Shown here: piece by piece, positions 2,737 to 45,749 of the stretch | Layout: each line of letters opens with the position of its first letter | Position numbering within the stretch: position 1 is the first letter of the stretch | Virus record (IMG/VR): IMGVR_UViG_3300044956_000373 | Span: 1-64,000 of that record | Reading direction: 5' to 3' (one strand) | DNA: 64,000 bases | DNA from: a virus | Program-made: the position numbers and the translations under genes | The notes under the pieces: generated by a model | What the model was told of the DNA's origin: nothing | Database searches by the model: none | Seen by the model: only the letters and a program-made list of their open reading frames with translations

Positions 2737-4359
2737 ATGGCAGAAATTATAATCATAGATCCTGCTGGTGGTTCGTCATCAACGCTAAGATGTGGATTAC
2801 AAAATACCGCAAGTGCTCCATGTTCAACAGTAAGTGGTGGAAATTGTAATACTTCTTCAGGTAATAATTCAACAATTGCAGGTGGGTTTAGTAACACGAC
2901 ATCAAATTGTTGTAGTACAATTGCTGGTGGTTCTCTAAACTTTGCGGGTGCTGAATATTCATTTATTGGTGGTGGTAGAGCCAACACAACTGATGACTCT
3001 TATGGTGTCATCATGGGGGGTGATAATAACTTTGCGGGATGTGAATGTTCTGTTGTCGGTGGTGGTCAATTTAACTCATCAATTTATGAATTTTCAACAA
3101 TACTTGGGGGACTAAATAACAATTCAAACGCATCATACGGATCAATTTTAGGTGGATGTAATAATACAATATTAGGATCCTTTTCATCGGTTGTTGGTGG
3201 TGATAATAATATTGCATTTTCAGATAGCACAATAATAGGCGGTGGGGCTTGTAACCAAAGTTATTCAACTTATGGAACCATAGGTGGTGGATCAAATAAC
3301 AAAATATATTTAGACGGAGCATCAATTGCTGGAGGTCAAAATAATACCGCAGTACAATACAACTCAAGTATTGGGGGTGGTTTTGGAAATACGGTTGTTG
3401 GTGGTTGTTCATTTGCCGTTGGTAATTTGAATATTGTTTCAGGAGTTACATCTTTTGTGTTATCTAATAACTCAACATTAAACGCTAATAACTCAGTAAT
3501 TTTGGGTGGTTCAGCGATAGTTGGGTCATCTGACGATACGGTATATGTTCCACAATTAAACATTTCAACTTTAAGTACGGGAACAACAATAAATAATTTA
3601 GGGATTGATTCTAATGGTTTTGTTGTTGTTGGAACTGACGTGACTGGACTAACACAATCATTAAGTGATGTTATCACCGTTGGCCCAAATACAGGTGGTG
3701 ATATAATTATGACAAACACAACCAGTATTTTCTCTGAAAATGGTCAAGGGTTCATTCAAGTTAATGATTCAGGGTTAGACTCCACAATCGTTTTACGAAC
3801 AACAGAAAGTGGAGACACCGTAGATAGTATTTACGAACAACAAAATAGTCTAATCGAATTACATGTAAGAGATCATTCAGTTAATCAAAGTTCCGTTCAA
3901 TTATCAACTAAAGTAGTTAAATTAACAACAATTGATAGTGCTTTAAGAACAACTGGAACAACAGATACTGGAGTTGTGATTAACGAATACAAATACAACA
4001 CCTCAACTTTATTAACTTCTGACGCAACACTTAGTGAAATAATTAAAATCGAAAACTTTTCAGGTGAATTGGTTGGTGGTGTTACCAATGTAAAAGTTTG
4101 GTGTAATGCTTTCGATACCGCAACATCTTCATTGGGATTATCACAAGAATTTACATCGGCATATTTGGTTGACGGATCCTCAATTCTTACTGAATTATCT
4201 ATATCGGGCCCCACAATTAATTTGAATTACTCGACGTTTCCTCCTTCTGTCACCGCAAATCTAACTTATACAACTTTCCCTGGTAGCGTAATCTTACAAG
4301 TGACAGGATTACCATCTGCGGATGTTTTTTGGAAATGTAGGGCTAGATGGTCTCAATAG
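2737..4359 (+). CDS. Second adhesin-like tail fibre protein with YadA-head-like repeats
   Basis: A 540-residue appendage protein. Residues 1-250 are about 17 short repeats of the type SxIxGGxxNxxxxxY, which resemble the trimeric YadA head. A linker follows with YVPQLNISTL and LGIDSNGFVVV, which is clearly paralogous to the first fibre at nt 1080-1155. The C-terminal 230 residues are beta-rich and unlike the first fibre. The ATG at 2737 sits inside the string TATTTATGG, as it does in the next gene. A strong terminator follows at 4381. This may be the distal part of the same fibre or an alternative receptor-binding protein. Fibre function is inferred from the repeats and the position among appendage genes. 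Confidence 0.75.
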   Translation: MAEIIIIDPAGGSSSTLRCGLQNTASAPCSTVSGGNCNTSSGNNSTIAGGFSNTTSNCCSTIAGGSLNFAGAEYSFIGGGRANTTDDSYGVIMGGDNNFAGCECSVVGGGQFNSSIYEFSTILGGLNNNSNASYGSILGGCNNTILGSFSSVVGGDNNIAFSDSTIIGGGACNQSYSTYGTIGGGSNNKIYLDGASIAGGQNNTAVQYNSSIGGGFGNTVVGGCSFAVGNLNIVSGVTSFVLSNNSTLNANNSVILGGSAIVGSSDDTVYVPQLNISTLSTGTTINNLGIDSNGFVVVGTDVTGLTQSLSDVITVGPNTGGDIIMTNTTSIFSENGQGFIQVNDSGLDSTIVLRTTESGDTVDSIYEQQNSLIELHVRDHSVNQSSVQLSTKVVKLTTIDSALRTTGTTDTGVVINEYKYNTSTLLTSDATLSEIIKIENFSGELVGGVTNVKVWCNAFDTATSSLGLSQEFTSAYLVDGSSILTELSISGPTINLNYSTFPPSVTANLTYTTFPGSVILQVTGLPSADVFWKCRARWSQ

Positions 4360-4380
4360 TATTTTTTCAGATTTATAAAT

Positions 4381-4410
4381 AACCTCACTCCCTTGAAAGT
4401 GAGGTTTTTT
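4381..4410 (+). terminator. Rho-independent terminator
   Basis: AACCTCAC (4381-4388) pairs with GTGAGGTT (4399-4406), followed by a T run. It ends the fibre transcription unit before the glycosyltransferase genes. Confidence 0.88.
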
Positions 4411-4445
4411 ATTTACAATAAGTTTTAAAATGATAAAATTTATTT

Positions 4446-5354
4446 ATGGTTAAAAGAAACTACACTCCTGAGGAACTTGTTAAATATAAAGAAAACAATC
4501 CTAACATTTCTAATTTTGAAAATAAAACATTATTAATCCATTTGGATTCATTTTGTTTGGGAGATACAATTTGTTTTTCATCTTTTTTGGATTCATTTGT
4601 TGAATATCATAATCCTAAATTTTGTTATGTCACAACTTTTTTCCCTCACTTATTGGAATCAACAAATCCAAAATATAAGTTTGTTGGTGCAACCGAAGAA
4701 GTATTTTTAGAAATTGACAAATTAATCAACGTTGGGTATGATAAAGATAACACATTCCAAACTATAAATGGAATGTCATATGCAGCTAAAGACACTTTAT
4801 TTTTACCACCGAATATACAAATTGGTAGACCTCCTGTGATAAAAAAAGAAAGGAATGTAAAACATAATAAAATTACAATCGCTCCTGAATCTTTAAAAAA
4901 AATTGCAACTTGGCAAAAAGAAAAGTGGCAACAAGTTGTTGATAAAATTGTAATGTCAAATTTTAAAGTTTATAATGTTTCATACGAAAATACTTTGGAG
5001 TTAGAAAATGTTATTGGTATTCATGGTAATGATGATATTAACGTTTCGTTGAGTCACATTTTAGAGTCTAGAGTTTTTATTGGTCTATCATCAGGTTTGT
5101 CTTGGTTGGCTTGGGCTTATGATGTGCCTGTGGTTATGATTGCAAACTTTACTAAAGTTCAAAATGAATTCGATTGTTTTAGAGTTTGGACTCCATATGT
5201 TTGTCATGGATGTTTTAACACATATAATAATATATCAAGTAGTTGTCCATTATTTATGGGTACTAATAGAGAAAATGAGTGTCATAGAGTAATAACTTCT
5301 GAAATGGTTATTGACAAAGTTAATCAAGCGCTTTCATTTACAAAAAACATATAA
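4446..5354 (+). CDS. BAHT-type (TibC/Aah-like) O-heptosyltransferase
   Basis: A 302-residue GT-B glycosyltransferase related to the bacterial autotransporter heptosyltransferases (TibC, Aah), which add heptose to Ser residues of AIDA-I/TibA-type adhesins. The N-terminal motif LIHLDSFCLGDTI (about residues 29-41) fits the donor-side Rossmann strand and LGDT signature. The C-terminal half has SGLSWLAWAYDVPVVMIANF and then NEFDCFRV. A four-cysteine cluster follows: C253, C256, C267 and C279 in CHGC-x10-C-x11-C, matching the iron-binding 'finger' of this family. It sits directly after two adhesin-like fibre genes and 16 bp before another GT9-like gene. Fibre glycosylation is therefore the natural inference. 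The sugar donor and acceptor cannot be read from sequence. Cytoplasmic. Confidence 0.82.
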   Translation: MVKRNYTPEELVKYKENNPNISNFENKTLLIHLDSFCLGDTICFSSFLDSFVEYHNPKFCYVTTFFPHLLESTNPKYKFVGATEEVFLEIDKLINVGYDKDNTFQTINGMSYAAKDTLFLPPNIQIGRPPVIKKERNVKHNKITIAPESLKKIATWQKEKWQQVVDKIVMSNFKVYNVSYENTLELENVIGIHGNDDINVSLSHILESRVFIGLSSGLSWLAWAYDVPVVMIANFTKVQNEFDCFRVWTPYVCHGCFNTYNNISSSCPLFMGTNRENECHRVITSEMVIDKVNQALSFTKNI

Positions 5355-5370
5355 CTTATAAATTATAATT

Positions 5371-6255
5371 ATGGAAAAAAAATATAGTATATTTCATTTA
5401 GAAGGTGGTTTAGGTAAGCATGTTGCAGCCACCTCAGTTGCTCAATGTATTAAAAATAATCACCCCGATCGTGAACTAATTGTTGTTTGCGGTTATCCTG
5501 AAATTTTTATAAATTTAGATTTTGTTGATCGGGTTTATCGAATAGGTATGACACCATATTTTTATAATGATTATATTGATGGTAAGGATAGTTTGATTTT
5601 TAAACATGAACCATATTTTACAACAGATCACATCCATAAACGATTGCATTTAATTATTAATTGGTGTAATCTATTTGGTTTAAAATATAACAACGAAGAA
5701 CCAATCTTAAAATTTAATAAAAGACAATTAGAAATTGCCCAACAAAAATGGGTTAGAGAAAGACCCGTTATGGTTATTCAAACAAACGGTGGCTCTTTAA
5801 CTGAACAACCTTTTCCTCATTCATGGACAAGGGATATGCCCCGAGATATTGCACAATCAATGGTAAATGCGTTTATGCCCTATTTCAACATAATTCAAAT
5901 TTGTAGAAATCAATCTAACATTTTAGAAAATGTTGAGGCGGTTACTGATGAACTATCTAATATGGAATTGTTTTCATTACTATTGGTTTCACAAAAAAGA
6001 TTGTTAATTGATTCATGTTTACAACATGCATCAGCCGCTTTAAAATTACCTTCTACGGTTTTATGGGTAGGGACTTCACCAACTATTTTTGGATATAATT
6101 TACACAATAACATTATTGCAGATTTGGGTAATAATATTAAATTACCTGATTCATACTTGTTTGATTATAATTTTAATGGTGTTACCCATGAGTGTCCAAT
6201 ATTTGACAAACCAATTTTCGATATTAATATAATCGCTGAGGTACTAAGAAAGTAA
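5371..6255 (+). CDS. GT-B (GT9-like) glycosyltransferase
   Basis: A 294-residue protein with a heptosyltransferase/GT9-like outline. The N-terminal FHLEGGLGKHVAAT (about residues 8-21) is a Rossmann start with a glycine-rich loop. A central strand MVIQTNGG (131-138) and a C-terminal segment LLIDSCLQHASAALKLPSTV follow, where GT9 enzymes place the donor-binding D..xxHxAAAL motif. It lacks the four-cysteine cluster of the preceding gene. It lies 16 bp downstream of that gene, so the two are probably co-transcribed and may work on the same acceptor, for example extending a first sugar on a fibre. The donor is unknown. A different GT-B family cannot be excluded. Confidence 0.65.
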   Translation: MEKKYSIFHLEGGLGKHVAATSVAQCIKNNHPDRELIVVCGYPEIFINLDFVDRVYRIGMTPYFYNDYIDGKDSLIFKHEPYFTTDHIHKRLHLIINWCNLFGLKYNNEEPILKFNKRQLEIAQQKWVRERPVMVIQTNGGSLTEQPFPHSWTRDMPRDIAQSMVNAFMPYFNIIQICRNQSNILENVEAVTDELSNMELFSLLLVSQKRLLIDSCLQHASAALKLPSTVLWVGTSPTIFGYNLHNNIIADLGNNIKLPDSYLFDYNFNGVTHECPIFDKPIFDINIIAEVLRK

Positions 6256-8719: not shown

Positions 8720-9967
8720 ATGAATACAATATTCGTTCAAATAGCGTCTTACAGAGACCCTCAACTTATCCCAACAATTAAAAACATGTTGGAAATGGCG
8801 AAAAACCCCGAAAATTTGGTTTTATCAATTGCCAGACAATTTCATCCTGAAGATGGTTTTGATGATTTATCAGAGTATGAAAATGACTCAAGATTTAAAA
8901 TTATTAACATAGTTTATAAAGAATCAAAAGGTGTGTGTTGGGCAAGACATTTGACACAACAACAATATGATGGTGAAGAATACACCCTTCAAATAGATTC
9001 TCATATGAGATTTGAAAAGAATTGGGATGAGGAAATGATCTCTATGATTAAACAACTTCAAGATAAAGGTTATAAAAAACCATTATTGACAGGTTATGTT
9101 TCATCATATGATCCTGAAAACGATCCCGAAGGTAGAGTATTAGATCCTTGGCGTATGACATTTGATCGTTTTACTCCCGAAGGCGTTGTTTTCTTTTTAC
9201 CTGAAGTTATACCTGGATGGAAAGAAATGACAGAACCTATCCCTGCAAGATTCTACTCCGCACATTATTGTTTTACTTTGGGTGAGTTTTCAAAGGAAGT
9301 ACAACATGATCCTGAGTTTTACTTCCATGGAGAAGAGATTTCAATTACGGTAAGATCATACACACATGGTTACGATTTATTTCATCCGTACAAAGTTTTA
9401 ATTTGGCATGAATACACAAGAAAAGGTCGTGTAAAGCAGTGGGATGATGATAAAGAATGGTTTAAAAAAAACGAAGATTGTCATGTTAAAAACCGACAAC
9501 TTTTGGGTATTGATGGTGAAGCGTTTAATGGAGATATGTCAAAGTATTTTGGAAACGTTAGAACCATTAAAGATTATGAAAAATATGCCGGAATATTATT
9601 TTCTAAACGAGCGGTTCAACAATATACCATAGATAAAAATTACCCACCAAACCCTTATGAATTCAATAATGAAAATGAATGGGAGGATAGTTTTATGTCA
9701 ATATTCAAACATTGCATTGACTTAGATTTAAATCGAGTTCCTGAAACAGATTATGATTTTTGGGTAGTTGCATTTCATAACTCGAAAGACGAAACTCTTT
9801 TTAGACATGATGCCGATGTAAATGAAATAAACAGATTAAAGACTGATCCTAATGGTGTTGTTAAAATATGGAGACAATTTAATACTTCAGAAAAACCTAA
9901 GTATTGGGTTGTTTGGCCCTATTCAAAATCAAAGGGATGGTGTGATAGAATTATTGGGGGACTATAA
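8720..9967 (+). CDS. GlcNAc-transferase-like (Skp1-type) glycosyltransferase
   Basis: A 415-residue GT-A enzyme of the family that includes eukaryotic Skp1 GlcNAc-transferase and many bacterial and phage enzymes. The N-terminus IFVQIASYRDPQLIPTI is the family's opening strand and loop. YTLQIDSHMRF (about residues 89-99) carries the DxH metal/nucleotide-sugar motif. FYSAHYCFTLGEF and DPEFYFHGEEISITVR are the acceptor-side and catalytic segments. The last 110 residues (from MSIFKHCIDLDL) are a small extra domain of unknown role. It is followed 2 bp later by another glycosyltransferase, so the two are co-expressed. The target may be fibre protein or another phage or host glycan. Confidence 0.75.
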   Translation: MNTIFVQIASYRDPQLIPTIKNMLEMAKNPENLVLSIARQFHPEDGFDDLSEYENDSRFKIINIVYKESKGVCWARHLTQQQYDGEEYTLQIDSHMRFEKNWDEEMISMIKQLQDKGYKKPLLTGYVSSYDPENDPEGRVLDPWRMTFDRFTPEGVVFFLPEVIPGWKEMTEPIPARFYSAHYCFTLGEFSKEVQHDPEFYFHGEEISITVRSYTHGYDLFHPYKVLIWHEYTRKGRVKQWDDDKEWFKKNEDCHVKNRQLLGIDGEAFNGDMSKYFGNVRTIKDYEKYAGILFSKRAVQQYTIDKNYPPNPYEFNNENEWEDSFMSIFKHCIDLDLNRVPETDYDFWVVAFHNSKDETLFRHDADVNEINRLKTDPNGVVKIWRQFNTSEKPKYWVVWPYSKSKGWCDRIIGGL

Positions 9968-18624: not shown

Positions 18625-20832
18625 TTATTTATTTTCAGTACAAATAACAAGTTGTTTTTCTGACGAAGGAACATTTAACGTTACGGTTTTTAACGTATCG
18701 TCATCTATGAATTTATATCCAACAATTTTACTATATTCAGGGTTTATTCTAAACCTAATTGATATTCTTTTCTCGTCACAACCTTTTTGACCTTTGTTCG
18801 ACCAATACAATTCAATATATTCGATTGGTACAATGAAGTCGTCATCATAAATAATCCCTGACATTTGATTTTTAACTTTAGTTAGATAATCTTTTGACGT
18901 TGCATTTTTAATCAACCAATTATAAATTCTATCTATTAAATTATTATATAGATCACCTACAACAGATTTTTTATCCGATATTGAACTTTGTTTAAAAATT
19001 GAAAAGAATTCAGATAAATAACTATCAATAAATGGGTCCATTTTTTTTACCTCAAATAAAGATCCTTTAGGGAAAATAACTTCTCCATCCTCATTTTTTA
19101 AATCTTCAATAGACTCTAAATCTGATTTAATATAATACGAACCTGATTTAAATGATTGAGATATGCACCCAACGATCCTAAAAAAATGATAATCAATAGT
19201 TTCTTCTTTATTGTGTATTTTCATTAAAGTGTCGATTAGTTTTTCTTTTGTATCATCACTGCAATGATAATTCAATCTCAAATTAGTTGGTTTATATTTA
19301 AAAAATTTACCCTCAAATCTTTTTTCATATTTTTGATACTCTTTTAATTTTGCGGTATCTGTTATATCAGATATATCATTAGGGACAATTGTTGAGTTTC
19401 TAAATTTATTAAGAGTCTTTTTAGTTACGTCATCATTATAATCTTCATCAGTTATAAATAGGGCAATTAGATTTAAATAACTTACAACTCTTTCCTCATT
19501 TTTAAGTGCTAAATTTACAATTGCAGGAAATACACCAACATTTTTATTTCTAAAAAAATTATCTAAAATAATAATACTTTTTTCTAAAGAGTTTTTCAAA
19601 AACTCATCGGTCATATCATCTTTAATTTTTTTTAATCTACAATATGGTGAGTTCTCGATCTTTCTTTTGGTTGCGAATCCACATAAATAATCAATTATAG
19701 ACCCTTCAGTTTTTTTTGACTCACTAATTAAAGATCCTTTCGATTCTTTGTTTTTAGCTTTCATATTAAATAACTCTTCAACAAAATTCCAATTAACAAC
19801 ATCCCAAAACTTTTTAATGTATTCATCCCGTTTGTTTTGATATTTCAAATAATAGGCGTGTTCCCAAACATCAAGACCCAAAACAGGATACCCACCTCCT
19901 TTAACAATATCCATCAAAGGATTATCTTGATTTGTTGTGGACATAACTTTTAATTTTCCATCTTTAGTCAAATATAACCAAGCCCAACCAGAACCAAATC
20001 TATCTTTAGCAGCTTGATTAAACTCATCCTTCATTCTTTTGATGTTTCCAAAATCTTTGTTGATTTGTTTTAAAACATTCCCTCTTGGTTTTTGTTTTTT
20101 TGGTGATAACATTTTCCAAAACAATGCGTGATTGAAGGCGCCTCCGGCGTTGTTTCTCACTTTATCATTGAACTTGCTGATCGATTTTATTATTTCATCG
20201 AGCTCAAGATTTCCATTTTTATTTTTTAATTCTTTATTCAACTTATCGACGTACCCTATATAATGTTTATTATAATGTACGTCCATTGTTTTAGAATCTA
20301 TAAACCTAGATAGTGATGAATATGAGTATGGTAATTTTTCAATACCAATTTTTTTCATTTCATTTATTAGAGTTTTTTCTATTTCATATTTTTCAGTTAA
20401 AAGAATAGATTCGTTTAATAAATTTAATTTTTTTTGAATTCCTTTATTTTCATACATTTTTGGTTCGTGATCAGGGTTTTCTTTCTCAAACATCTTAACA
20501 AGTCTTCCTGCAAAGGCATTTGCTTCATCTTCATTTTTACCACCAATGTTTGGTCCTTTTTCTCTTTTTAAAACATCCATTTGATGTTCGTGAATCCATT
20601 CGTGAGCTAAGGTTCTCATGATATCTCTATTCATTCGATCACCAACTAAGACCTTAATAACGTTATCAGACCTTCTACTACCTGTTGACATAGCACCTTT
20701 TTTTTGATTTAAAAAGAATATTTCCAAATCATTTTTTAACGGAAATTCTCTTTGTAGAAGTTTAATAAACTTATTAACAAAGTCAGAATGTTTTCTAAAA
20801 TCTTTATTTTCGTAATTGATAGATACTTTCAT
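18625..20832 (-). CDS. Metallopeptidase-like / Mn-type superoxide dismutase fusion
   Basis: A 735-residue, three-part protein. Residues 1-125 carry HEWIH (H77, E78, H81) and EDEANAFA (E101), the HExxH...ExxANxFA pattern of ImmA/IrrE-like zinc peptidases. Residues 165-357 are a complete Fe/Mn superoxide dismutase: LPYSYSSLSRFIDSKTM, then ligands H186, H235 (NNAGGAFNHALFW) and D321/H325 (GLDVWEHAYYLKYQN). Q302 in STTNQD and the Gly in NNAGG match the manganese type. Residues 360-735 are unknown. (L/I)xE sites flank the SOD domain (LNE 139-141, LTE 145-147, INE 156-158, ISE 369-371), as expected of prohead-protease substrates. It lies 1 bp after the 142-residue gene. SOD would convert superoxide to peroxide; its place in infection is unknown. 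Confidence 0.85.
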   Translation of the reverse strand: MKVSINYENKDFRKHSDFVNKFIKLLQREFPLKNDLEIFFLNQKKGAMSTGSRRSDNVIKVLVGDRMNRDIMRTLAHEWIHEHQMDVLKREKGPNIGGKNEDEANAFAGRLVKMFEKENPDHEPKMYENKGIQKKLNLLNESILLTEKYEIEKTLINEMKKIGIEKLPYSYSSLSRFIDSKTMDVHYNKHYIGYVDKLNKELKNKNGNLELDEIIKSISKFNDKVRNNAGGAFNHALFWKMLSPKKQKPRGNVLKQINKDFGNIKRMKDEFNQAAKDRFGSGWAWLYLTKDGKLKVMSTTNQDNPLMDIVKGGGYPVLGLDVWEHAYYLKYQNKRDEYIKKFWDVVNWNFVEELFNMKAKNKESKGSLISESKKTEGSIIDYLCGFATKRKIENSPYCRLKKIKDDMTDEFLKNSLEKSIIILDNFFRNKNVGVFPAIVNLALKNEERVVSYLNLIALFITDEDYNDDVTKKTLNKFRNSTIVPNDISDITDTAKLKEYQKYEKRFEGKFFKYKPTNLRLNYHCSDDTKEKLIDTLMKIHNKEETIDYHFFRIVGCISQSFKSGSYYIKSDLESIEDLKNEDGEVIFPKGSLFEVKKMDPFIDSYLSEFFSIFKQSSISDKKSVVGDLYNNLIDRIYNWLIKNATSKDYLTKVKNQMSGIIYDDDFIVPIEYIELYWSNKGQKGCDEKRISIRFRINPEYSKIVGYKFIDDDTLKTVTLNVPSSEKQLVICTENK

Positions 20833-21286: not shown

Positions 21287-24208
21287 TCACCTTTTGTTAA
21301 TTAGGTTTAATATTTCCTCGACAACATCACCAACATTTTCAGGTATTTGATCACCCATCACGGTTCTGATAATTTCTTTTTTCTTATTCAAAATATCATA
21401 AATCACACCCTCTATTGTATTTTCATATAAAGGATAGTAAACCAACACGTTTGATTTTTGACCATAACGATATGCCCTATCTTCCGCTTGTGCGTGTTCT
21501 GCAGGAACAAATGATAAATCATTTATAATAACAACCTCAGCAGATGTTAATGTTAAACCAACACCAGCCGCCTTTAAATTACCAACAAAAACTTTTATTT
21601 TATCGTCATTTTGAAATGAGTCGACGGCTTGTTGACGAACTGAGTTAGAACAACTACCATCCAAATAAACCGCTTGATTTTTAAAGTGATGGTAGATTGT
21701 TCGAAGTGAGTCTGTAAAGTTGGTAAAAATAATAACTTTTTTCTCTTGTTCTAAAATATTTTCCGCAAATTCAATTGTTTGTTTTGTTTTTTCATTTGCA
21801 ATTACTTTTCGAACTTTCATTAATTTTGAAAACTGTACGGTAAGTGATGAAGATTCGTCAGGATTTTTATCATACCAATCATAATATTCACCCATTAAAT
21901 TTTCATATTCTTTCGATTGTAATCTCAAATAAACAGGTGTAATGATTTTATCGGGTAAATCCAAAACTTCTTCTTTTAATCTTCTAAGAATTTGTTTTGA
22001 GGTCCGATCTCTTAACTCTTCTAAGTTAGACGCTCCTGTTACGTTCCATACTTTTCTATTTCCTGCCTTAAACTGATACCCTTGACAGTATCGAATGGCA
22101 TAGGCCATCCAATTCTGTGCTACAGGGCTTTCGATGATACTCAAAAGATTGTAATAATTCATGGGTCGTGAAGTCATTGGTGTTCCCGTTAATAACCACA
22201 CTCGATTAATTTTTTTTACAAAACTATTTATGATTTTTGTTCTTTGGGCTTGTGCATTTGAAATCATATGGGCTTCATCTAAAATAACTAAATCAAAATT
22301 GCATTGTTCTAATAAGGTTGGTTCCTTACTTTTTGGATCGTGAAAGTTCTTTAGTATGTCGTAGTTGATAATCACAAAATCATGTTCGGTTGAAAATTTT
22401 TTTCCTTCACAAATAAAAACAGAACGATCTGAATAGTTTTCAATTTCTCTTTGCCAGTTTATTTTAAGTGATGCGGGACAAACAATTAATATTTTTTTTG
22501 ATCCTGTTTCTAAGGATGCGATAATTGTAGATGTTGTATTATGTGTAACAATACAATGTTCGGTCACATATAGTTTATCGGGAGAGTCTACTGAAATACA
22601 AACACTTTCTTCAAATCCAACTTTTTCAATATTTTTAATAAATCTACCAGTTGGGTATTTTATAGGTTCAATGTACTTTTCAGCTTTTCGTTTTAATCTA
22701 AAAGGGTTCATTCCTTTTGGTAGTTTAATATTAACCCTATATGATAACTGACCTTTCTTTTTTTCACCATTATATGTATATGTCGGAATACGAGTTTTAA
22801 CTCTCGCAATACCTCCTAATGTTTGAACAATCTCAACAACATCATCACAAAGTTGTTTTGAAATTGTTGAGTATTCGGTTCCTGAAAAATTTTCTTGTTC
22901 ATTATACATACAATGACCGTCAGTGTCCATTAACCCTTGTAGTATAGATAATCTATTTTCAATTGATGAATATTTGTATATTTCTGGTATAAATTTATTG
23001 TGTGAACGAGACTCATTTAATTTAAGATTACATAATATGTCTCTACCAATAAATTTATTTCCCTTTCTTTTGTTGTCAATTTGTTTATTTTCACTTAAAT
23101 TGAAACCACCAAATAATTCATCATAATCATCACTATGTACTGTAAATACACAAGATGATTTAGTTAGATGTCCATCCCCTAAAATTAAACCTAATAAATA
23201 AGGATCAATAGGAAGGTTATCATTTCGTTCAAATTGAATTGGTTGAACAATAGGAATTTGCCATTTATTATTTCCGTTTGTTGACTTGAAGTAAGTTTCA
23301 ATTTCATATTCCTTATCCTTATTATGACCAACACCTTTAACTTTTATTTTACCCCCCTCAAACATTTGTTTAGTTGATAATACTAAAGATTTTTTTCGTC
23401 TTTTGTTTTTTGTATTTTGGCCATAATTTGGTGATGATACTGACCATAAATGTTCATCCCCCACTAAAATTGAAAATCCGTCATTAAATGTGATTTTATA
23501 TGTTTCTTTGACACCCTGTAGAAATACACCAATAACATTATGAGATTTTCCATCACTACCAATTACTTTGTCACCCACTTTTAAATCACCAATTTTTTTT
23601 CTACCAATCGGGGTAAATACTTCGTTTTTTACATACTCGCATTTCCCCACCCCCATATCATCTGCCAAAATAAATCTTTTGGATCCTACCAACCTTTCAA
23701 TTGCAATTTTTTGATGATTTAATGGCGGTCGGTGGGAATACTTTGAATAATCAATTTCAACACTCTGAACATTGTGTGTTTTTATAAGTGCTGATTTGGG
23801 GACCCAAAATTCAGACAATTGGTCCTTTTTAAAAAACTTTCCCCAAACGTGATATGATTTTTCTTTTTCTACGAGTAATTTTTCTATATAAATTTTTTCA
23901 GGAGTTTGTAACAAATATTTTTCTTCGGCAAATTTCTTAGCGAAGTAGGTGTCTAACTCAACCCACTTTCTTGCAACCTTTGGTGTTGTTTCAAAGTAAT
24001 TTATAATATAATCTGCTTGGGCTCGGGTAGGATAAAACTTTTTGGATGTTTCTTTTTTCTGTTTTAAAAAAAGTATGTAGTTATTTGCACCACTATAAGA
24101 ATCAAGTAGTTCAAGAGCTTTGTGTTCAACTAAAGACGATATATTATCCAATTCAAGTCTTTCACTAAAAATAACAATAAAATGTATATTTATCAATAAA
24201 ACACCCAA
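21287..24208 (-). CDS. SNF2-type helicase/ATPase interrupted by an intein
   Basis: A 973-residue precursor; the mature host protein is 605 residues. It is an SF2/SNF2-family DNA translocase like SMARCAL1. Motif I is ADDMGVGK-TTST, split by the intein. Motif II is DEAH in LVILDEAHMIS. Motif III is LLTGTPM. Motifs V/VI are AAGVGLTLTSA and QAEDRAYRYGQ. It may do the fork-remodelling job of T4 UvsW. The start is uncertain: no ATG precedes the Walker A region. TTG at 24208 or 24196 are candidates and are back-to-back with the plus-strand gene at 24209. Adjacent downstream genes on the same strand are structural. Splicing must occur for ATPase activity because the intein separates the Walker Lys from the Thr that contacts Mg-ATP. 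Confidence 0.88.
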   Translation of the reverse strand: MGVLLINIHFIVIFSERLELDNISSLVEHKALELLDSYSGANNYILFLKQKKETSKKFYPTRAQADYIINYFETTPKVARKWVELDTYFAKKFAEEKYLLQTPEKIYIEKLLVEKEKSYHVWGKFFKKDQLSEFWVPKSALIKTHNVQSVEIDYSKYSHRPPLNHQKIAIERLVGSKRFILADDMGVGKCEYVKNEVFTPIGRKKIGDLKVGDKVIGSDGKSHNVIGVFLQGVKETYKITFNDGFSILVGDEHLWSVSSPNYGQNTKNKRRKKSLVLSTKQMFEGGKIKVKGVGHNKDKEYEIETYFKSTNGNNKWQIPIVQPIQFERNDNLPIDPYLLGLILGDGHLTKSSCVFTVHSDDYDELFGGFNLSENKQIDNKRKGNKFIGRDILCNLKLNESRSHNKFIPEIYKYSSIENRLSILQGLMDTDGHCMYNEQENFSGTEYSTISKQLCDDVVEIVQTLGGIARVKTRIPTYTYNGEKKKGQLSYRVNIKLPKGMNPFRLKRKAEKYIEPIKYPTGRFIKNIEKVGFEESVCISVDSPDKLYVTEHCIVTHNTTSTIIASLETGSKKILIVCPASLKINWQREIENYSDRSVFICEGKKFSTEHDFVIINYDILKNFHDPKSKEPTLLEQCNFDLVILDEAHMISNAQAQRTKIINSFVKKINRVWLLTGTPMTSRPMNYYNLLSIIESPVAQNWMAYAIRYCQGYQFKAGNRKVWNVTGASNLEELRDRTSKQILRRLKEEVLDLPDKIITPVYLRLQSKEYENLMGEYYDWYDKNPDESSSLTVQFSKLMKVRKVIANEKTKQTIEFAENILEQEKKVIIFTNFTDSLRTIYHHFKNQAVYLDGSCSNSVRQQAVDSFQNDDKIKVFVGNLKAAGVGLTLTSAEVVIINDLSFVPAEHAQAEDRAYRYGQKSNVLVYYPLYENTIEGVIYDILNKKKEIIRTVMGDQIPENVGDVVEEILNLINKR
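22538..23641 (-). mobile_element. LAGLIDADG homing intein in the Walker A motif
   Basis: A 368-residue in-frame insertion, residues 190-557 of the helicase precursor. The N-terminal junction is GVGK/C with block A CEYVKNEVFTPIGRKKIGDL. The C-terminal junction is EHCIVTHN/T, the canonical His-Asn end with Thr as +1 nucleophile. Two dodecapeptide motifs, LLGLILGDGH (about residue 340) and LQGLMDTDGH (about 425), mark a LAGLIDADG endonuclease of the DOD type. Removing it restores GVGKTTST exactly. All splice residues are present, so it is probably active. Confidence 0.95.
24187..24194 (+). promoter_or_regulatory. TATTTATC upstream element
   Basis: TATTTATC 14 nt before the ATG at 24209. It lies inside the extreme N-terminal coding part of the divergent helicase if that gene starts at 24208, which is one reason to doubt that start. 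Confidence 0.45.
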
Positions 24209-38839: not shown

Positions 38840-39163
38840 ATGGCACTTCAATATTTTAACAGATATTCAGACTTTTTAATAAATGGACAACAAACCGTTG
38901 TTCCCTATATTACTCTACAACCAAAAAGTAGTGATAAAGCACACATTTATATTGTGGGTCAATCTAGACTTGATAAAATATCGCAACAATATTATAACAC
39001 ACCATTTTTTGGTTGGTTAATAATGCAGGCAAACCCCCAATATAGTGGTTTAGAAACCAACATTCCTGATGGTGCGGTATTGACAATTCCATTTCCATTA
39101 GTAGCATCATTACAAGATTATAAAAATAATTTAAATAACCACTTCTTCTATTATGGTAGATAG
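38840..39163 (+). CDS. LysM-like baseplate protein (gp53-like)
   Basis: A 107-residue protein. Residues 28-95 have a LysM-like outline: AHIYIVGQSRLDKISQQYYNT, then WLIMQANP, then IPDGAVLTIPFP. Such domains occur in T4 gp53 and in tail X proteins, where they sit in the baseplate or tail tip rather than necessarily binding peptidoglycan. It starts 4 bp after the 1683-residue gene and overlaps the next start by 11 bp, so the three are translated as a unit. gp53-like is the best fit, at lower confidence than the fold itself. Confidence 0.65.
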   Translation: MALQYFNRYSDFLINGQQTVVPYITLQPKSSDKAHIYIVGQSRLDKISQQYYNTPFFGWLIMQANPQYSGLETNIPDGAVLTIPFPLVASLQDYKNNLNNHFFYYGR

Positions 39164-42100
39164 TAATGAAAACATACTTGTCGAATATGATTACGATAAT
39201 ATTACTTTAATTGACCCAAATAGAGTTGTCGATAATTTAGGTAATGTACAAGAAAGATTAGTCAAACAAGAGGACTTAGTTTATTACGCTAATTTGGAAT
39301 GTAATGTATTACCAAGAACAAAATTAGCTGTAGGTACCGCACTAAATGACCAACAAAGAACAATATCTGTAGGTAAAATAAATTTTCTAAACCCTGGATT
39401 TAAAACATTTTATGATACAAGTTGGTCTGATGAGTTGACAGGTAAAGACACTTTACAAGGTAAAGGAGTTAATCAACCTTCATTAAAGTCGGTTAAAAAT
39501 CCAAATAAGTCTGACGATTATTATATTACACAAAGTACATACTCAAATGGAACGCCAGGTGCTGTTGATACTGGTTTGTTAGGAATTAAAGACATAAACA
39601 TTTCAATGGGAATGGACTTTCTTCCTGTGGTTGAAATGACTTTAGAAGACGTTAAAGGTAGAACTTTATTTGAGGCAGGTAATAACTCGCCATATGCCGC
39701 TTTTTTCCAATTACCATATCCTTTATTTAATTTAACACTGAAAGGGTATTACGGTAAAGCGATAAAATATCCGTTGATGTTGCAATCATTTACATCAAAT
39801 TTTGACCCTTCATCTCATAATTTTTTAATTCGACTTAAATTTTTTGGATATAAATATACATTATTATCTTATGTGAATTTTGGAGCCTTAATGGCGGTTC
39901 CACATATGTATAATAATTTGGTAACAACCGTAACACGTAAAACTGAAACAAATGATTCGATAAAAGAAACTGGCCAAAAATCTGTATTAGTTAGTCGTGG
40001 TTATGAAAAAATGAAAGAAATTTATTCTGATTATAAATCAAAAGGTTTAATTGATGATGATTTTCCTGAAATCACTTTAAATCAATTACGATATAGGTTA
40101 GATGAGTTTATAAAAAATATTTTAGAACAATTTACCAAAGAAAATATGGGAGTTCTTACTGATGTAAGTAACTATCAAAATAGTTTAATTAACTATCAGA
40201 CAAAAGTTTATTTTGGTGCCGGTACTTCATGGTTTAATAGGTACATGGACACAAAAAATCCATATATAACTAAGAATGGTGAAACCGTATATACTTGGTT
40301 AGAAAATATTAAACTTGAAGACAGACCTAAGTGGTATAAAGAACTTGAAGGTCTTGTTATAACATACAATAAACAATTAAACGATAATTCAGTTTTAGGT
40401 AAAAATCCAGGATCATATACAATCGCTAAAACAACATACTCGTCTTCAATTGATAACACAATACAAACTGAAGTTTTTGTTAAACCTATTAACCCAAAGA
40501 CTGACATTGATTGGGTTAAAAGTTATAAAAGTCTAAATCCATCAGTCAATTTTGTCGATCAAGATGATGTCAAATTCAAAACATATAAAGAAGGTAGGTT
40601 AAATATTATAAATAAAACTATAGGAAACTCAAATATAACCTTTCCAAATTTCTTATACTTCGAAGGACCAGGGTCTTTTATTGAAAAGACCAATAAAATG
40701 GCTAAAGACGCTGAGGTTAAAAAGAAAGAAATCGAAGAAAAAATTATGAATAACCTAAAGGTACAATTCAATAACAAAGAATATGGTTTAGGGTTTATAC
40801 CAACGGTTAGAAATATATTGGCAATATTTTATTGTCAAGGTGAAGCGTTTTTAAGATTATTAGATGAAGTACATTCAAAGGCGTGGGATCAAAGAGAAAA
40901 CCAATACAGAAGAGCCGCAATCTTTGGAGGATCGACAACAGCTCCGAGTGTGGATGTTAAAACCTCAACACAAAATAACGAACCCATTTATCCATGGCCA
41001 CAAGTGATTAAAGAAACTATTGGTTCTGATAATCAAGAAAAATTTGAAATAATTTATCCTGGCGCCGCTGATGTTGCAACACAATATAGAGCATACATAC
41101 CTGAGGTATGGCCTGAGGTTGAGTTTGTTGAAGAATTTATTAAAGGTTATACGTATAGGGATAATGATTTTACAAAACTAGACTCAAATCAAACTAACGA
41201 GGCGAATAGACCACGAAGAATATCGTTAAACTCTATTGATTTTCCTGTGTCTAATCAGGTGTTCCAAAACAAACAACAATCTAAATATTTTTATGAAATA
41301 TACGAAAGAATTATTTTGAATGCGTATTATTCGAAATTAAATCGTATCTCAGGATATCCTTTTTCGGTTTATAATGTTGTCGCTGAAAACGAATCAATTA
41401 ACATGATTGAAAGTTTAGGTCAAACAAATCCATACCTTTCTAAAATATTAAAAGAGTACCAAATAGATCAAACTAATTTTGAAATTTTCTTACGTCATAT
41501 CTCTAATGAAGGTCAAGGTGAGAGTTGGCAAAACTTTATAAGAGGTAATTTTGTTACACCTTATATTAAAAGTGAGGTTGAAAATCCATCGGTATTGTTT
41601 AATCAAGACATATTAAATAATACAAAGTCACAGCCTGATGTTAGTTTAATTATTGCGAGTAACAAAATTAACATAGAAAATTATGTTTCTGAAACACCTG
41701 CGAGTAATATTTTTGATTTTACGGACATTTATCCTTTAACCAATTTAAATTGGGATAAAGATTATTTAGCGAACGGATCATCGTTAAATTTTGCAACTGA
41801 ATCATTCGAAACCGATAGTGTAATAGAATATAACGGAGTTCAAAAAACAATAACAAATTTTCAGTTTGATGATCAAACTAATGAAAAAAAACCAATAAGT
41901 AATTTTAACTTTTTTAATTTAGTTGGTAATAGAAACATTGTCAATTTGAAAACTTTCTATGAGACAAATACAAATACAAATCAATTTGTTACTGAAGGGA
42001 ATCTTAGATATACAAACTATAATGGTCAGTTGATTGCAGAACAAACCACATCAATGATGAATACACCATATTTTATTAATGCAATACAAGATGGTGTGTT

Positions 42101-45100
42101 TAAATTTAGATATAGACCAAACGAAAAAAGTCCATATAAAGCCGCGGCGTATTTGTTTTTAGAAAGTTTACCATTGGCAACCACTAAAGAAAAATATAAA
42201 ACTTATGAAAGTGGTGCTGAAATTTCATTGGATTACATATTAGCAACATTAAAAAAATTTGGAGGAATCCACAAATTACCCTATTCATGGATTTTAAAAT
42301 ATGGTGCTATTTGGCATAGATATAAAACTTGGATTGATACTGGTTTTGACTTTTTAGATGATGTGTGGAAAGATTTTGATTATGCAAAAAACTATGACTC
42401 CATAAATTCTGATGTTACTAAATTATATCAATTACTAATTGGAGGAGTTCAAAGAAATATCGTGTGTGATCAAACAACCGGAGTTGCACCATTCACAGAT
42501 ATGAACGTTGGGTTTTATCCTCAACTAATGGATGATTATAATGTATTCATACAAGGGGTTAAGTTATTATCAGGAAGTTCAATAGTTCAAGGTGTTTGTA
42601 CCATATCAGGAAATACAATGCAAGTCATTTCCATTAGTAATAATATTTTATCTGGCGGTTCACAAATAGTAGGTCCGAACATTTCGGGTACAACAACTAT
42701 TTTATCTCAAGTAACAGGTACAACTGGAGGTATTGGTACTTATACGATATCACCATCACAATCTGCAAACACAACAACATTTAATGTTTTAAACACAATA
42801 ATCAATGGTCCTGGTAGTTCAGACATACAAAGTTTAATAAACAACGGGACTTTAGTTATGTTTAGCACACCTAATTCAAGTATATACGAACCTCAAGGTT
42901 TTGACCCTAATCAAATAACAAGAACATTAAGATTAAATACTTGGTCTATGGCGGTTAAAGAAAATAACAAAGAAGATTATTTTGTATTCCCTTCTTTTGG
43001 CGCCAACATTAATCAAACATATTCAGAGTGTTTTAAAAATGGAATAATGAGAACCGAAGTTTCCCAAAACCCTTCAGTATTCAATGGGTCAATAAGATTA
43101 TATTGGAATGCTTCTCAATATGGTTATTTTGACAATAATAAAGTTGATAAGAGCGCTCCTGACCAATACTTTAAAAATATAAATAATAATTCTGAAGCTC
43201 AAGAAAATTTCAGAATAACTGGTGACCAAAATCAATATTCTAAAATTGATGAAATGTTTTCAGCATTCGATTTAAATACTTTGGATCTTTTTGAAAAAGA
43301 GTTTTTAAATTTTAGTAAATCCGTTTATGACTATACAGATACAATACCACCGACAATAAGTTTCAATGTCTCTGACTTGACACAACAAAATGTTACAACA
43401 TTAAACTCAACTGAAACACCAAGTGATAAGGCTTACAAAAATTTTCAACAATTAATGAGGGAATTGATGAAAGTACAAACTCCCGTAGGAACTACACCAC
43501 AAACATTATTTGAAAATATTACAAATAGTCAAAACGAAACATTTCAAACGGTACTTAAAAACTTTCTAGAATACAATGTTGTTTTTAAATACGGAAACCC
43601 ATCAGGATTTGATAGAAAAAGTTTTTTCACATTTTCAACACAATTTATTGAGGAACCAATATCTATTGATCCATATATAAAAAACTCATTACCTGGTGAT
43701 GGAATTGCACCGGGCGTGACTTTATTACAATCAGAAACTCAGAACCCTGACGTTTGGAAAACATTACGAAAATATGTAGGATTTTCAGAAATACCACAAT
43801 TAAAATATGGTAATAATGGGTCATACATAACAGATTTTTTCATCGTTATGAATGCCGGATTCAACGAAAAAAATATCCAAGATTTTGCACCACTTATTAA
43901 AATATTTGCAACTCAAAAAATTGCAAATCCAAATTTAACTGCGAATGAGTTTTACTCACTAATGGACGATTATTTAATCGAAAGTAAAAATTATCTTAAT
44001 AATATTTTATCTATTTTAATGCCTTCAGTCAGAAGACAATTACCTCAAGTTATAATTTCGTCACAAGAGGGTAATGTTAAGGCAAATTTAGAGGCCGGAT
44101 TTACAGAACAAACTAGAACTGAATTGTGGGAAACATTTAAAACATTAAATGACACTTGGATTTCAGGTTACGATTTTTCTGACAAAACTTTATTTGAAGA
44201 TGTTTTATTATTAGATAGAGCATCGAGAGATGTTGGAAACAAAATTCTTGTCGATATTTTTGAAATTAAAGATCTACTTGAAGGTTCATTATATAAAAAT
44301 ACAATGTTGGGTATTGTTGAAAGTGTTTTGAAATATAATAATTTTGTAACTTACATGTTACCATCTTATATTAATTTTTATAATGTACAAAATGCAGAAA
44401 AAAATCCGGTCCCAAGACCTGATGGTAGTGACGAATTTGCAAATTCTATGTTTGGTACATTTTTAAATGTTGATTACAGAAATAGTTCGCCTAAATATGT
44501 TTGTGTTTATGCGAGTAAACCAAGTGAACACTTGGCAATGAATGATAATATTGATTATAGATATAGAGATGATGCTTTTGATTTGAGAAGATCTAGTGAT
44601 AATCCATTAATAGAAAATCAAATAAATAAAACAGATTGGGCTAGATCAAATAAAGTTGTTGGTTTTAATGTTGATATAACATTACAAAATCAACAAATAT
44701 TTAAACAATTTGATGTCGCCCAAGACCCTGGAAAACCAACAGCAGAATCTTTGGAGGTTTTAAATCAAATGGCAAATCTATCAAGAAATAGAAGATCCTC
44801 AACACAAAGTGTATCATTATATAATTTATATAAAAATAGAAGTTATAGATGCTCAATTGATATGATGGGAAATGCATTAATACAACCAACAATGTATTTT
44901 AATATTAGAAACATACCTTTGTTCTCTGGTCCATACATGATAACTGGTGTAAAACATAGAATTAGTGAAAATGGTTTTGACACAACCTTTGAAGGTATAA
45001 GACAACCTTTCTATAGTTTACCAAAAATTGAAAACTTTATTCAGTCATTAAATGAGAAAATTTTAACAAGCATACAAGAACAAATACAAGAAAACGAAAC

Positions 45101-45749
45101 CAAAAAGGCCAGCGATCCTAATAACGTTATTGCAGAAAAAAATAAAATAATGTCTAATATAAATGCAGAACAAACATTAACGGCAAATCAAGATTGTAAT
45201 TCTGCAATTACTGAGTTTTATAGAGGATTCACATTAGTAGAATCACCTTTAAAAACAAAAGTGACGTTTGGACAAATGAAAAACACGATAATTGAAAAAT
45301 TAGGTCAGTATGGATATACGACCCAACTACAACAATATGCAACAATTTTGTTCACGTTTTTATATGTCGACTCCTCAACACAACAGGGTTTTGAAAGTTA
45401 TGAAAACAACTATAGCACTATTGATCTAAAACAATATTATGGAGACGCATTTTTTGAATACATTAATAGAAAATACTATTGTGTAAATCGAGGTACAAAT
45501 GTGAACGATCCAATTGTTAGTTTTATAGACCTTAATACATTTTTAAATTTTGCGATTTCCAAAATTGCGGGTATCTTATCAAGGGACGTGACTGTTGGTA
45601 CCGCATCATCTGAACTAGCTGAATTATATGTCAGATATTACCCAACCACAAAAAATTTAAATATTTGGACAGATTTAACACAAACGGATAAAAATATATT
45701 AATCGAAAAATTTCAAAGAGCAATTAATACTTATAATTCATTAAATTAA
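39153..45749 (+). CDS. Giant baseplate hub protein with gp27-like C-terminal region
   Basis: A 2198-residue structural protein. Residues 140-260 (INISMGMDFLPVVEMTLEDV through LTLKGYYGKAIKYPLML) look like a hub beta-barrel with DVKG and FxLPYPLFxLTLKG motifs. Residues about 1140-1215 contain an inserted low-complexity beta module with TTGGIGTYTISPSQ. Residues about 1840-1955 include YRCSIDMMGNALIQPTMYF and YMITGVKHRISENGFDTTF, the pattern of gp27/hub proteins that bind the tube end. The rest is alpha/beta without recognised motifs. With the previous two genes it probably builds the central hub. No lysozyme motif is seen in it. Confidence 0.6.
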   Translation: MVDSNENILVEYDYDNITLIDPNRVVDNLGNVQERLVKQEDLVYYANLECNVLPRTKLAVGTALNDQQRTISVGKINFLNPGFKTFYDTSWSDELTGKDTLQGKGVNQPSLKSVKNPNKSDDYYITQSTYSNGTPGAVDTGLLGIKDINISMGMDFLPVVEMTLEDVKGRTLFEAGNNSPYAAFFQLPYPLFNLTLKGYYGKAIKYPLMLQSFTSNFDPSSHNFLIRLKFFGYKYTLLSYVNFGALMAVPHMYNNLVTTVTRKTETNDSIKETGQKSVLVSRGYEKMKEIYSDYKSKGLIDDDFPEITLNQLRYRLDEFIKNILEQFTKENMGVLTDVSNYQNSLINYQTKVYFGAGTSWFNRYMDTKNPYITKNGETVYTWLENIKLEDRPKWYKELEGLVITYNKQLNDNSVLGKNPGSYTIAKTTYSSSIDNTIQTEVFVKPINPKTDIDWVKSYKSLNPSVNFVDQDDVKFKTYKEGRLNIINKTIGNSNITFPNFLYFEGPGSFIEKTNKMAKDAEVKKKEIEEKIMNNLKVQFNNKEYGLGFIPTVRNILAIFYCQGEAFLRLLDEVHSKAWDQRENQYRRAAIFGGSTTAPSVDVKTSTQNNEPIYPWPQVIKETIGSDNQEKFEIIYPGAADVATQYRAYIPEVWPEVEFVEEFIKGYTYRDNDFTKLDSNQTNEANRPRRISLNSIDFPVSNQVFQNKQQSKYFYEIYERIILNAYYSKLNRISGYPFSVYNVVAENESINMIESLGQTNPYLSKILKEYQIDQTNFEIFLRHISNEGQGESWQNFIRGNFVTPYIKSEVENPSVLFNQDILNNTKSQPDVSLIIASNKINIENYVSETPASNIFDFTDIYPLTNLNWDKDYLANGSSLNFATESFETDSVIEYNGVQKTITNFQFDDQTNEKKPISNFNFFNLVGNRNIVNLKTFYETNTNTNQFVTEGNLRYTNYNGQLIAEQTTSMMNTPYFINAIQDGVFKFRYRPNEKSPYKAAAYLFLESLPLATTKEKYKTYESGAEISLDYILATLKKFGGIHKLPYSWILKYGAIWHRYKTWIDTGFDFLDDVWKDFDYAKNYDSINSDVTKLYQLLIGGVQRNIVCDQTTGVAPFTDMNVGFYPQLMDDYNVFIQGVKLLSGSSIVQGVCTISGNTMQVISISNNILSGGSQIVGPNISGTTTILSQVTGTTGGIGTYTISPSQSANTTTFNVLNTIINGPGSSDIQSLINNGTLVMFSTPNSSIYEPQGFDPNQITRTLRLNTWSMAVKENNKEDYFVFPSFGANINQTYSECFKNGIMRTEVSQNPSVFNGSIRLYWNASQYGYFDNNKVDKSAPDQYFKNINNNSEAQENFRITGDQNQYSKIDEMFSAFDLNTLDLFEKEFLNFSKSVYDYTDTIPPTISFNVSDLTQQNVTTLNSTETPSDKAYKNFQQLMRELMKVQTPVGTTPQTLFENITNSQNETFQTVLKNFLEYNVVFKYGNPSGFDRKSFFTFSTQFIEEPISIDPYIKNSLPGDGIAPGVTLLQSETQNPDVWKTLRKYVGFSEIPQLKYGNNGSYITDFFIVMNAGFNEKNIQDFAPLIKIFATQKIANPNLTANEFYSLMDDYLIESKNYLNNILSILMPSVRRQLPQVIISSQEGNVKANLEAGFTEQTRTELWETFKTLNDTWISGYDFSDKTLFEDVLLLDRASRDVGNKILVDIFEIKDLLEGSLYKNTMLGIVESVLKYNNFVTYMLPSYINFYNVQNAEKNPVPRPDGSDEFANSMFGTFLNVDYRNSSPKYVCVYASKPSEHLAMNDNIDYRYRDDAFDLRRSSDNPLIENQINKTDWARSNKVVGFNVDITLQNQQIFKQFDVAQDPGKPTAESLEVLNQMANLSRNRRSSTQSVSLYNLYKNRSYRCSIDMMGNALIQPTMYFNIRNIPLFSGPYMITGVKHRISENGFDTTFEGIRQPFYSLPKIENFIQSLNEKILTSIQEQIQENETKKASDPNNVIAEKNKIMSNINAEQTLTANQDCNSAITEFYRGFTLVESPLKTKVTFGQMKNTIIEKLGQYGYTTQLQQYATILFTFLYVDSSTQQGFESYENNYSTIDLKQYYGDAFFEYINRKYYCVNRGTNVNDPIVSFIDLNTFLNFAISKIAGILSRDVTVGTASSELAELYVRYYPTTKNLNIWTDLTQTDKNILIEKFQRAINTYNSLN

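Follow-up and report, generated by a model that had tools for sequence, protein, structure and literature searches.

A phage SNF2 helicase interrupted in Walker A by a probable mobile intein of class 3 lineage that combines Cys1 with the WCT signature

An SNF2-family helicase gene in the window (the whole 64,000-nucleotide stretch of viral DNA analysed here, part of a 69,887-base virus record) carries in its Walker A loop what is very probably a mobile intein of the class 3 (WCT) lineage, one that combines Cys1 with the WCT signature and that would work by the steps set out in the Discussion. The kind of intein is already known and its place is ordinary; the interesting part is a coupling between residue 1 and position 7 of block B (B:7), together with copies at the same site in which Cys1 and Thr B:7 occur with active-site residues of both class 1 and class 3. 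Because the window copy has Cys1, our claim is one of class 3 lineage and class-3-like working, not of class 3 in its strict definition.

Results

The interrupted helicase gene

The gene, its parts and the endonuclease motifs of the insert are as follows.

21287..24151, minus strand: SNF2-family helicase gene with intein; probable start TTG 24151, open frame up to 24208
23642..24151, minus strand: N-extein, 170 aa counted from the probable start, last residues ADDMGVGK
22538..23641, minus strand: intein, 368 aa
23168..23197, minus strand: LAGLIDADG motif 1 (LLGLILGDGH), acid Asp156
22916..22945, minus strand: LAGLIDADG motif 2 (ILQGLMDTDG), acid Asp241
21290..22537, minus strand: C-extein, 416 aa, first residues TTSTII; holds the rest of Walker A, DEAH and Helicase_C

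The frame at 21287..24208 (minus strand) stays open across the insert, with no stop, and the junctions are exact (...ADDMGVGK / CEYVKNEVFTP ... CIVTHN / TTSTII), with the insert lying between the Walker A Lys and Thr. The two domains by which we recognise an SNF2 helicase, an SNF2-related ATPase and Helicase_C, are both found in the host protein above the Pfam cut-offs (SNF2-rel_dom, PF00176, 2.3e-27, split across 180-769; Helicase_C, PF00271, 6.2e-17), and LAGLIDADG_3 and Hom_end both match the insert, likewise above their cut-offs. As expected of a LAGLIDADG intein, the insert is in frame and has blocks A, B, F and G, a terminal His-Asn and a +1 residue of the Ser/Thr/Cys type. The exact junctions and the Pfam domains bear out the preliminary description of this DNA, which had proposed that a LAGLIDADG intein interrupts an SNF2 helicase at its P-loop lysine; the clean junctions and two endonuclease motifs that it reported are also there, both LAGLIDADG acids being present.

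The helicase more likely starts at TTG 24151 than at TTG 24208, judging from related extein loci, of which 71 of 80 have TTG where residue 20 aligns and the others TAA (4), ATT (3) or TCT (2). A start at TTG 24151 would give a precursor of about 954 aa and a spliced product of about 586 aa, so that the 605 residues first claimed for this product give way to a probable 586. The stretch at 24152-24208 (minus strand), between the helicase start and a divergent gene, is A+T-rich and similar in relatives (TTTTATTGATAAATAT...TTGTTATTTTTA), and is perhaps a shared promoter region.

Several other genes of the window drew attention. In the 735-aa protein encoded at 18625-20832 (minus strand), the middle part holds a complete Fe/Mn superoxide dismutase (PF00081, PF02777), and close to the N-terminus lies LAHEWIHEHQ, which resembles HExxH; the 415-aa protein encoded at 8720-9967 (plus strand) matches PHROG 24687, a glycosyltransferase, at 6e-163. 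The ORFs at 23-2677, 39153-45749 and 57766-63531 (plus strand; 884, 2198 and 1921 aa) had no Pfam match at 0.01.

The splicing signature and the class of the intein

From 461 sequences (460 loci and the cut from the window), 369 had a full intein match and 364 were kept, which reduced to 189 distinct relatives, 112 following GK and 77 following a bacterial MRGR motif whose host gene we take to be dnaB. The residues of the window intein that bear on splicing are listed with their conservation in this set.

23639..23641, minus strand: Cys1, unconserved in the family (A, G, C, F, S, M, L, E)
23459..23461, minus strand: Gly61, block B:7, covaries with residue 1
23450..23452, minus strand: His64, block B:10, 189/189
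23444..23446, minus strand: Trp66, block B:12 (W of WCT), Trp in 177 and Phe in 12 of 189
22598..22600, minus strand: Cys348, block F:4 (C of WCT), likely initiating nucleophile, 189/189
22544..22546, minus strand: Thr366, block G:5 (T of WCT), 189/189
22538..22543, minus strand: penultimate His367 and terminal Asn368, each 189/189
22535..22537, minus strand: Thr+1, predicted second nucleophile, which would also be the Walker A threonine after splicing

Cys F:4, Thr G:5, His B:10 and the last His-Asn are thus invariant, and residue 1 is Ala in 109 sequences, Gly in 20, Cys in 19, Phe in 17, Ser in 13, Met in 7, Leu in 3 and Glu in 1, which leaves 157 of the 189 without a nucleophile at that position. 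The preliminary description had named Cys1 and the HN/T end as splice residues; they are present, but it missed the conserved set of Cys348, Trp66 and Thr366, and Cys1 is unconserved.

Cys F:4, Trp B:12 and Thr G:5 are the WCT positions of class 3 inteins (PMC7891396, PMC3196547), and the window copy has all three residues. The strict sequence definition of class 3 also has a position 1 without a nucleophile (PMC7891396), where the window copy has Cys1, and the class 1 feature of a Cys, Ser or Thr conserved at position 1 is absent among the same-site relatives. A published set of 1701 class 3 inteins was defined by the absence of an N-end Cys (PMC7891396), so that mixed inteins with Cys1 and WCT would fall outside it.

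An ordinary class 1 intein would form its first thioester with Cys1, leaving Cys348 a bystander. We consider this unlikely, even though the class 1 residues are all there (Cys1, His B:10, His367, Asn368 and Thr+1) and, of the solved structures, the one closest in sequence is that of the class 1 intein gp41-1 (E = 5e-11). The sister alleles L086 and L096, which sit inside the window's own 10-row clade (98*), have Ala1, and more distant alleles have Phe, Gly, Met or Leu, all with intact frames and the same junctions. Moreover, F:4 is Cys in every one of the 189 sequences whereas many class 1 inteins have Asp there (PMC7891396), and B:7 in the window is Gly instead of the usual class 1 Thr. Because the copies that lack a nucleophile at residue 1 are intact (and are under selection in the cases tested), the simplest mechanism for the family to share is that Cys F:4 makes the attack. 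On the strength of these alignments, splicing of the window intein is most likely started by Cys348, and its Cys1 is probably dispensable.

The AlphaFold model of the intein has a mean pLDDT of 89 and over its whole length resembles PI-SceI (Z = 25.3, 3.6 Å over 329 residues). Its best match among endonuclease-free intein chains is the class 3 DnaB intein 6bs8_C (Z = 19.6, 1.4 Å over 123 residues), followed by 6riy_A (19.2) and 6rix_B (19.0), both class 3, and then by gp41-1 (18.3 and 18.1), with the remaining inteins in the comparison at Z = 17.5 downward; matches within 1 Z were counted as tied.

Cys1 was also considered as a clade marker and rejected, as the masked tree, which was built without blocks A and B, requires at least 7 changes of it and the N-cassette tree at least 11. 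Mixed inteins with both Cys1 and WCT were reportedly assigned to class 3 by Tori and Perler in 2011.

Four copies at the same helicase site (L267, L270, L335 and L364) combine Cys1 and Thr B:7, a class 1 N-junction, with Cys F:4 and Thr G:5; B:12 is Trp in the first three and Phe in L364. Thr at B:7 is confined to Cys1 copies (4/4 among the 112 GK-site inteins). In L128 and L129, a second and different intein interrupts DExH (motif II) of the same helicase, at about 4351-5427 in the C-extein (ILDE / C...RVYDLEIEDNHNYFANNILVSN / CHYI). The second intein is class 1 in look, so that inteins of two types share one gene, class-3-type at Walker A and class-1-type at motif II.

Coupling between residue 1 and block B:7

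Among the 112 GK-site inteins, Gly at B:7 accompanies every Phe1 (17/17), Met1 (7/7), Leu1 (3/3) and Glu1 (1/1), and Asp at B:7 accompanies every Gly1 (20/20). The B:7 partners of Ala1 are Cys (26), Asp (7), Ser (4), Gly (3), Asn (2) and Ala (1), those of Cys1 are Gly (8), Cys (5), Thr (4) and Ser (2), and Ser1 occurs with Cys (2). Since Gly B:7 is also found with Ala1 in three rows and with Cys1 in eight, it does not imply a bulky residue 1. The 77 dnaB-site rows, which have Ala or Ser at residue 1 and Cys or Ser at B:7, were left out of the mutual-information, independent-pairs and simulation tests.

The mutual-information test and the first tree were based on 106 of the 112 GK-site rows, with L409, L321, L326, L328, L325 and L324 left out as distant hosts. 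By APC-corrected mutual information, the pair 1-61 ranked second of 52,975 column pairs and first of the 47,581 separated by at least 20 residues, and residues 1 and 61 were mutual best partners. The independent-pairs test and the simulations used 97 rows, nine more long-branch or distant rows having been dropped. On the masked tree, bulky residue 1 and Gly B:7 gave 11 supported independent pairs, with a mean of 10.7 going the same way and 0 the opposite way (median p = 0.001), and Gly1 and Asp B:7 gave 7, with 6.5 the same way and 0 opposite (p = 0.016). Cys1 and Gly B:7 showed no clear link by independent pairs (0.3 the same way and 1.7 opposite, of 5).

A possible explanation for this covariation is linkage only, in that N-terminal cassettes would recombine as blocks in phage populations. 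Some inteins have the same N-terminal decapeptide although their bodies differ (AEFVENKVFTP in L086 and L025, for example), and the N-cassette tree leaves fewer supported independent pairs, with 4.2 of 5 for bulky residue 1 and Gly B:7, a number too small to be significant, and 5.8 of 6 for Gly1 and Asp B:7 (p = 0.03). Nevertheless, we regard linkage as an improbable full account of the pattern. Residue 1 has its strongest partner in residue 61, above residues 2-10, and simulated independent evolution reached the observed association in 0 of 2000 runs on either tree, the N-cassette tree included. Furthermore, in pairs of inteins that share 8 or all 9 of residues 2-10 (limited to an overall identity of at most 95%), the class of B:7 differs in 17 of 20 when the class of residue 1 differs, against 6 of 65 when it is the same; contrasting examples are GLITSTLAITP with Asp and ALITSTLAITP with Cys, or MEFVDNQVFTP with Gly and CEFVDNQVFTP with Ser.

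The rule was also written down before an out-of-sample set of 13 phage inteins was scored, all 13 of which were counted. Gly at B:7 occurs in 3 of the 13, with Leu1, Leu1 and Asp1, and the sole Gly1 intein has Asp at B:7. Clavibacter phage CMP1, with Asp1 and Ser B:7, breaks the pre-stated rule, and Big3 has Pro1, a residue not on the rule's list, with Ser B:7. The seven Ala1 or Cys1 inteins have Asn (3), Ser (2), Cys (1) or Asp (1) at B:7. All three Gly residues fall among the 4 listed bulky rows of the 13, for which a hand calculation gives p of about 0.014. The intein start in L468, L470 and L473 was inferred from the alignment, with no P-loop GK before it.

Empty alleles, transfer and selection

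The preliminary description had suggested looking for inteinless alleles in related phages, and these turned out to be the rule among close relatives of the host gene. The 80 closest C-extein relatives, drawn from IMG/VR and 82-100% identical, include 75 in which Walker A is uninterrupted (ADDMGLGKTT, gap 0 at the site) and 5 (L007, L008, L009, L013 and L025) that have an intein at the same point; L008 and L083 represent a single contig, whose copy of the gene does not differ from that of the window. In a search started from the intein, 80 of 80 loci have the same gene and the same insertion site, as judged from whichever extein each contig retains.

The identities of exteins and inteins are at odds, as would be expected from transfer: L009 is 94% identical in the C-extein and only 55% in the intein, and L085 is 62% identical in the N-extein and 86% in the intein. 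Compared with L082, the window has 99.5% identity in the intein DNA and 0 mismatches in the first 300 bases on the C-extein side, followed by 2-17 mismatches per 100-base bin over the next 673 C-extein bases; on the N side, there are 6 mismatches within the first 100 bases. We read this pattern as the footprint of a recent homing event in which the downstream flank appears to have been co-converted.

The dN/dS of the intein is 0.08-0.11 against seven relatives (0.10 and 0.11 against L086 and L096) and about the same in the endonuclease part; the LAGLIDADG domain is thus under purifying selection. That the intein is a dead relic, no longer splicing or homing, is very improbable given its open frame, its invariant catalytic residues, a dN/dS of about 0.1 in both the whole intein and the endonuclease part, and the footprint of recent transfer.

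Related inteins in other phages

The host family had been described at first as uncommon for phage inteins, which is contradicted by a tblastn search with the intein as query: related inteins occur in 762 phage records and, among the matches listed, many are annotated as DNA helicase, SNF2 domain helicase or DarB-like antirestriction, and others as terminases and an RNA polymerase subunit. We therefore reject the reading of an uncommon host, as related inteins are common in phage helicases, including PhiPA3 gp233, annotated 'putative SNF2 domain helicase'. Scans of viral sequences returned 4 relatives for the L319 intein as query and no relative for the Cane17 intein. Insertion between the P-loop Lys and Thr has been termed a 'classic' P-loop insertion (PMC5050341), and the insertion place in the window is ordinary for inteins.

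Discussion

The reading that best accounts for these observations, and that we hold to be very probable, is a mobile intein of class 3 lineage that splices by means of Cys348. Cys348 (F:4), and not Cys1, would attack the peptide bond between Lys and Cys1 and take up the N-extein, which, following the known class 3 pathway, would then be handed to Thr+1. Asn368 would cyclise with the assistance of His367, so that the intein is freed and GVGKTT, and with it the ATPase, is restored; what the spliced product looks like is shown by the empty alleles. The LAGLIDADG domain is expected to cut empty helicase alleles at the same site, and their repair would copy the intein along with some flank, a step of which the co-conversion footprint is visible in the alignment with L082.

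Residue 1 would pack against block B:7 and so hold the N-junction, a contact suggested by published class 3 structures: Asp62 (B:7) of Msm DnaBi1 is near Ala1 (PMC6195587), and Ser65 of AceL NrdHF is close enough to the Ala1 carbonyl and to the scissile amide for hydrogen bonding (PMC7891396). Because Cys F:4 supplies the nucleophile, residue 1 would be free to change, but only jointly with B:7; the allowed joint changes would be a bulky residue 1 with Gly B:7, and Gly1 with Asp B:7. In AceL NrdHF, which has Ala1 and Ser B:7, splicing is abolished by Ala1Gly, for which the authors invoke backbone flexibility (PMC7891396); this result suggests agreement with the pairing of Gly1 and Asp, and the Ser at B:7 is a possible reason for the failure.

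We advance more tentatively, as an idea that may well prove wrong, that a co-evolving lock of residue 1 and B:7 on the N-scissile bond allows nearly any residue at position 1 of class 3 inteins, and that the same site holds interconverting forms, including those with Cys1, Thr B:7 and full WCT (L267, L270 and L335). If true, the rule would explain why B:7 is unconserved in class 3 (PMC7891396), and would offer a design rule for splicing tools. An earlier report of this covariation was not found in the literature searched, including the excerpts of PMC7891396, PMC6195587, PMC7664689 and PMC12245125, which does not prove that there is none; it is new as far as our searches show.

The origin of class 3 by loss of Cys1 from class 1 was put forward as a hypothesis in PMC3196547; a direct descent of class 3 from class 1 or 2 is argued to be impossible in PMC7664689. 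One allelic site with Cys1, Ala1, Gly1, Phe1, Met1, Leu1 and Ser1 versions constitutes a natural series for this debate.

Comparison with known systems

The inteins of PhiPA3 gp233, of the helicase of Brevundimonas phage Papperlapapp and of similar proteins are also class-3-type LAGLIDADG inteins in phage helicases, about 35% identical, with Ala1 and Cys B:7 (PhiPA3) or Met1 and Gly B:7 (Papperlapapp); that of the mycobacteriophage Cane17 helicase, with Ala1 and Asp B:7, is 34.5% identical to the window intein. According to Tori and Perler (2011), the Gp206 intein of mycobacteriophage Catera is reportedly among those with Cys1 and WCT. It is a phage class 3 intein and was reported to splice efficiently (PMC3196547). 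The Snf2 intein of Deinococcus radiodurans is likewise a class 3 intein in an SNF2 helicase (Brace et al. 2010, via PMC5222942 and PMC3196547), but its host is a bacterium, whereas the window copy is from a phage and has Cys1.

The gp41-1 intein (6qaz; 6riz is an engineered form) shares the Thr-His-Asn end of the window intein, but is class 1, with Cys1 and Asp at F:4 (PMC12245125, PMC7664689), and has no endonuclease. The closest endonuclease-free intein structures are the class 3 DnaB-1 inteins of Msm and Mch (6bs8, 6rix and 6riy; 1.4-2.0 Å), which are mini-inteins without an endonuclease, unlike the window intein. Msm DnaBi1 is a P-loop insertion too (PMC6195587), and has Ala1, which is no nucleophile, with Asp B:7, where the window has Cys1 with Gly B:7.
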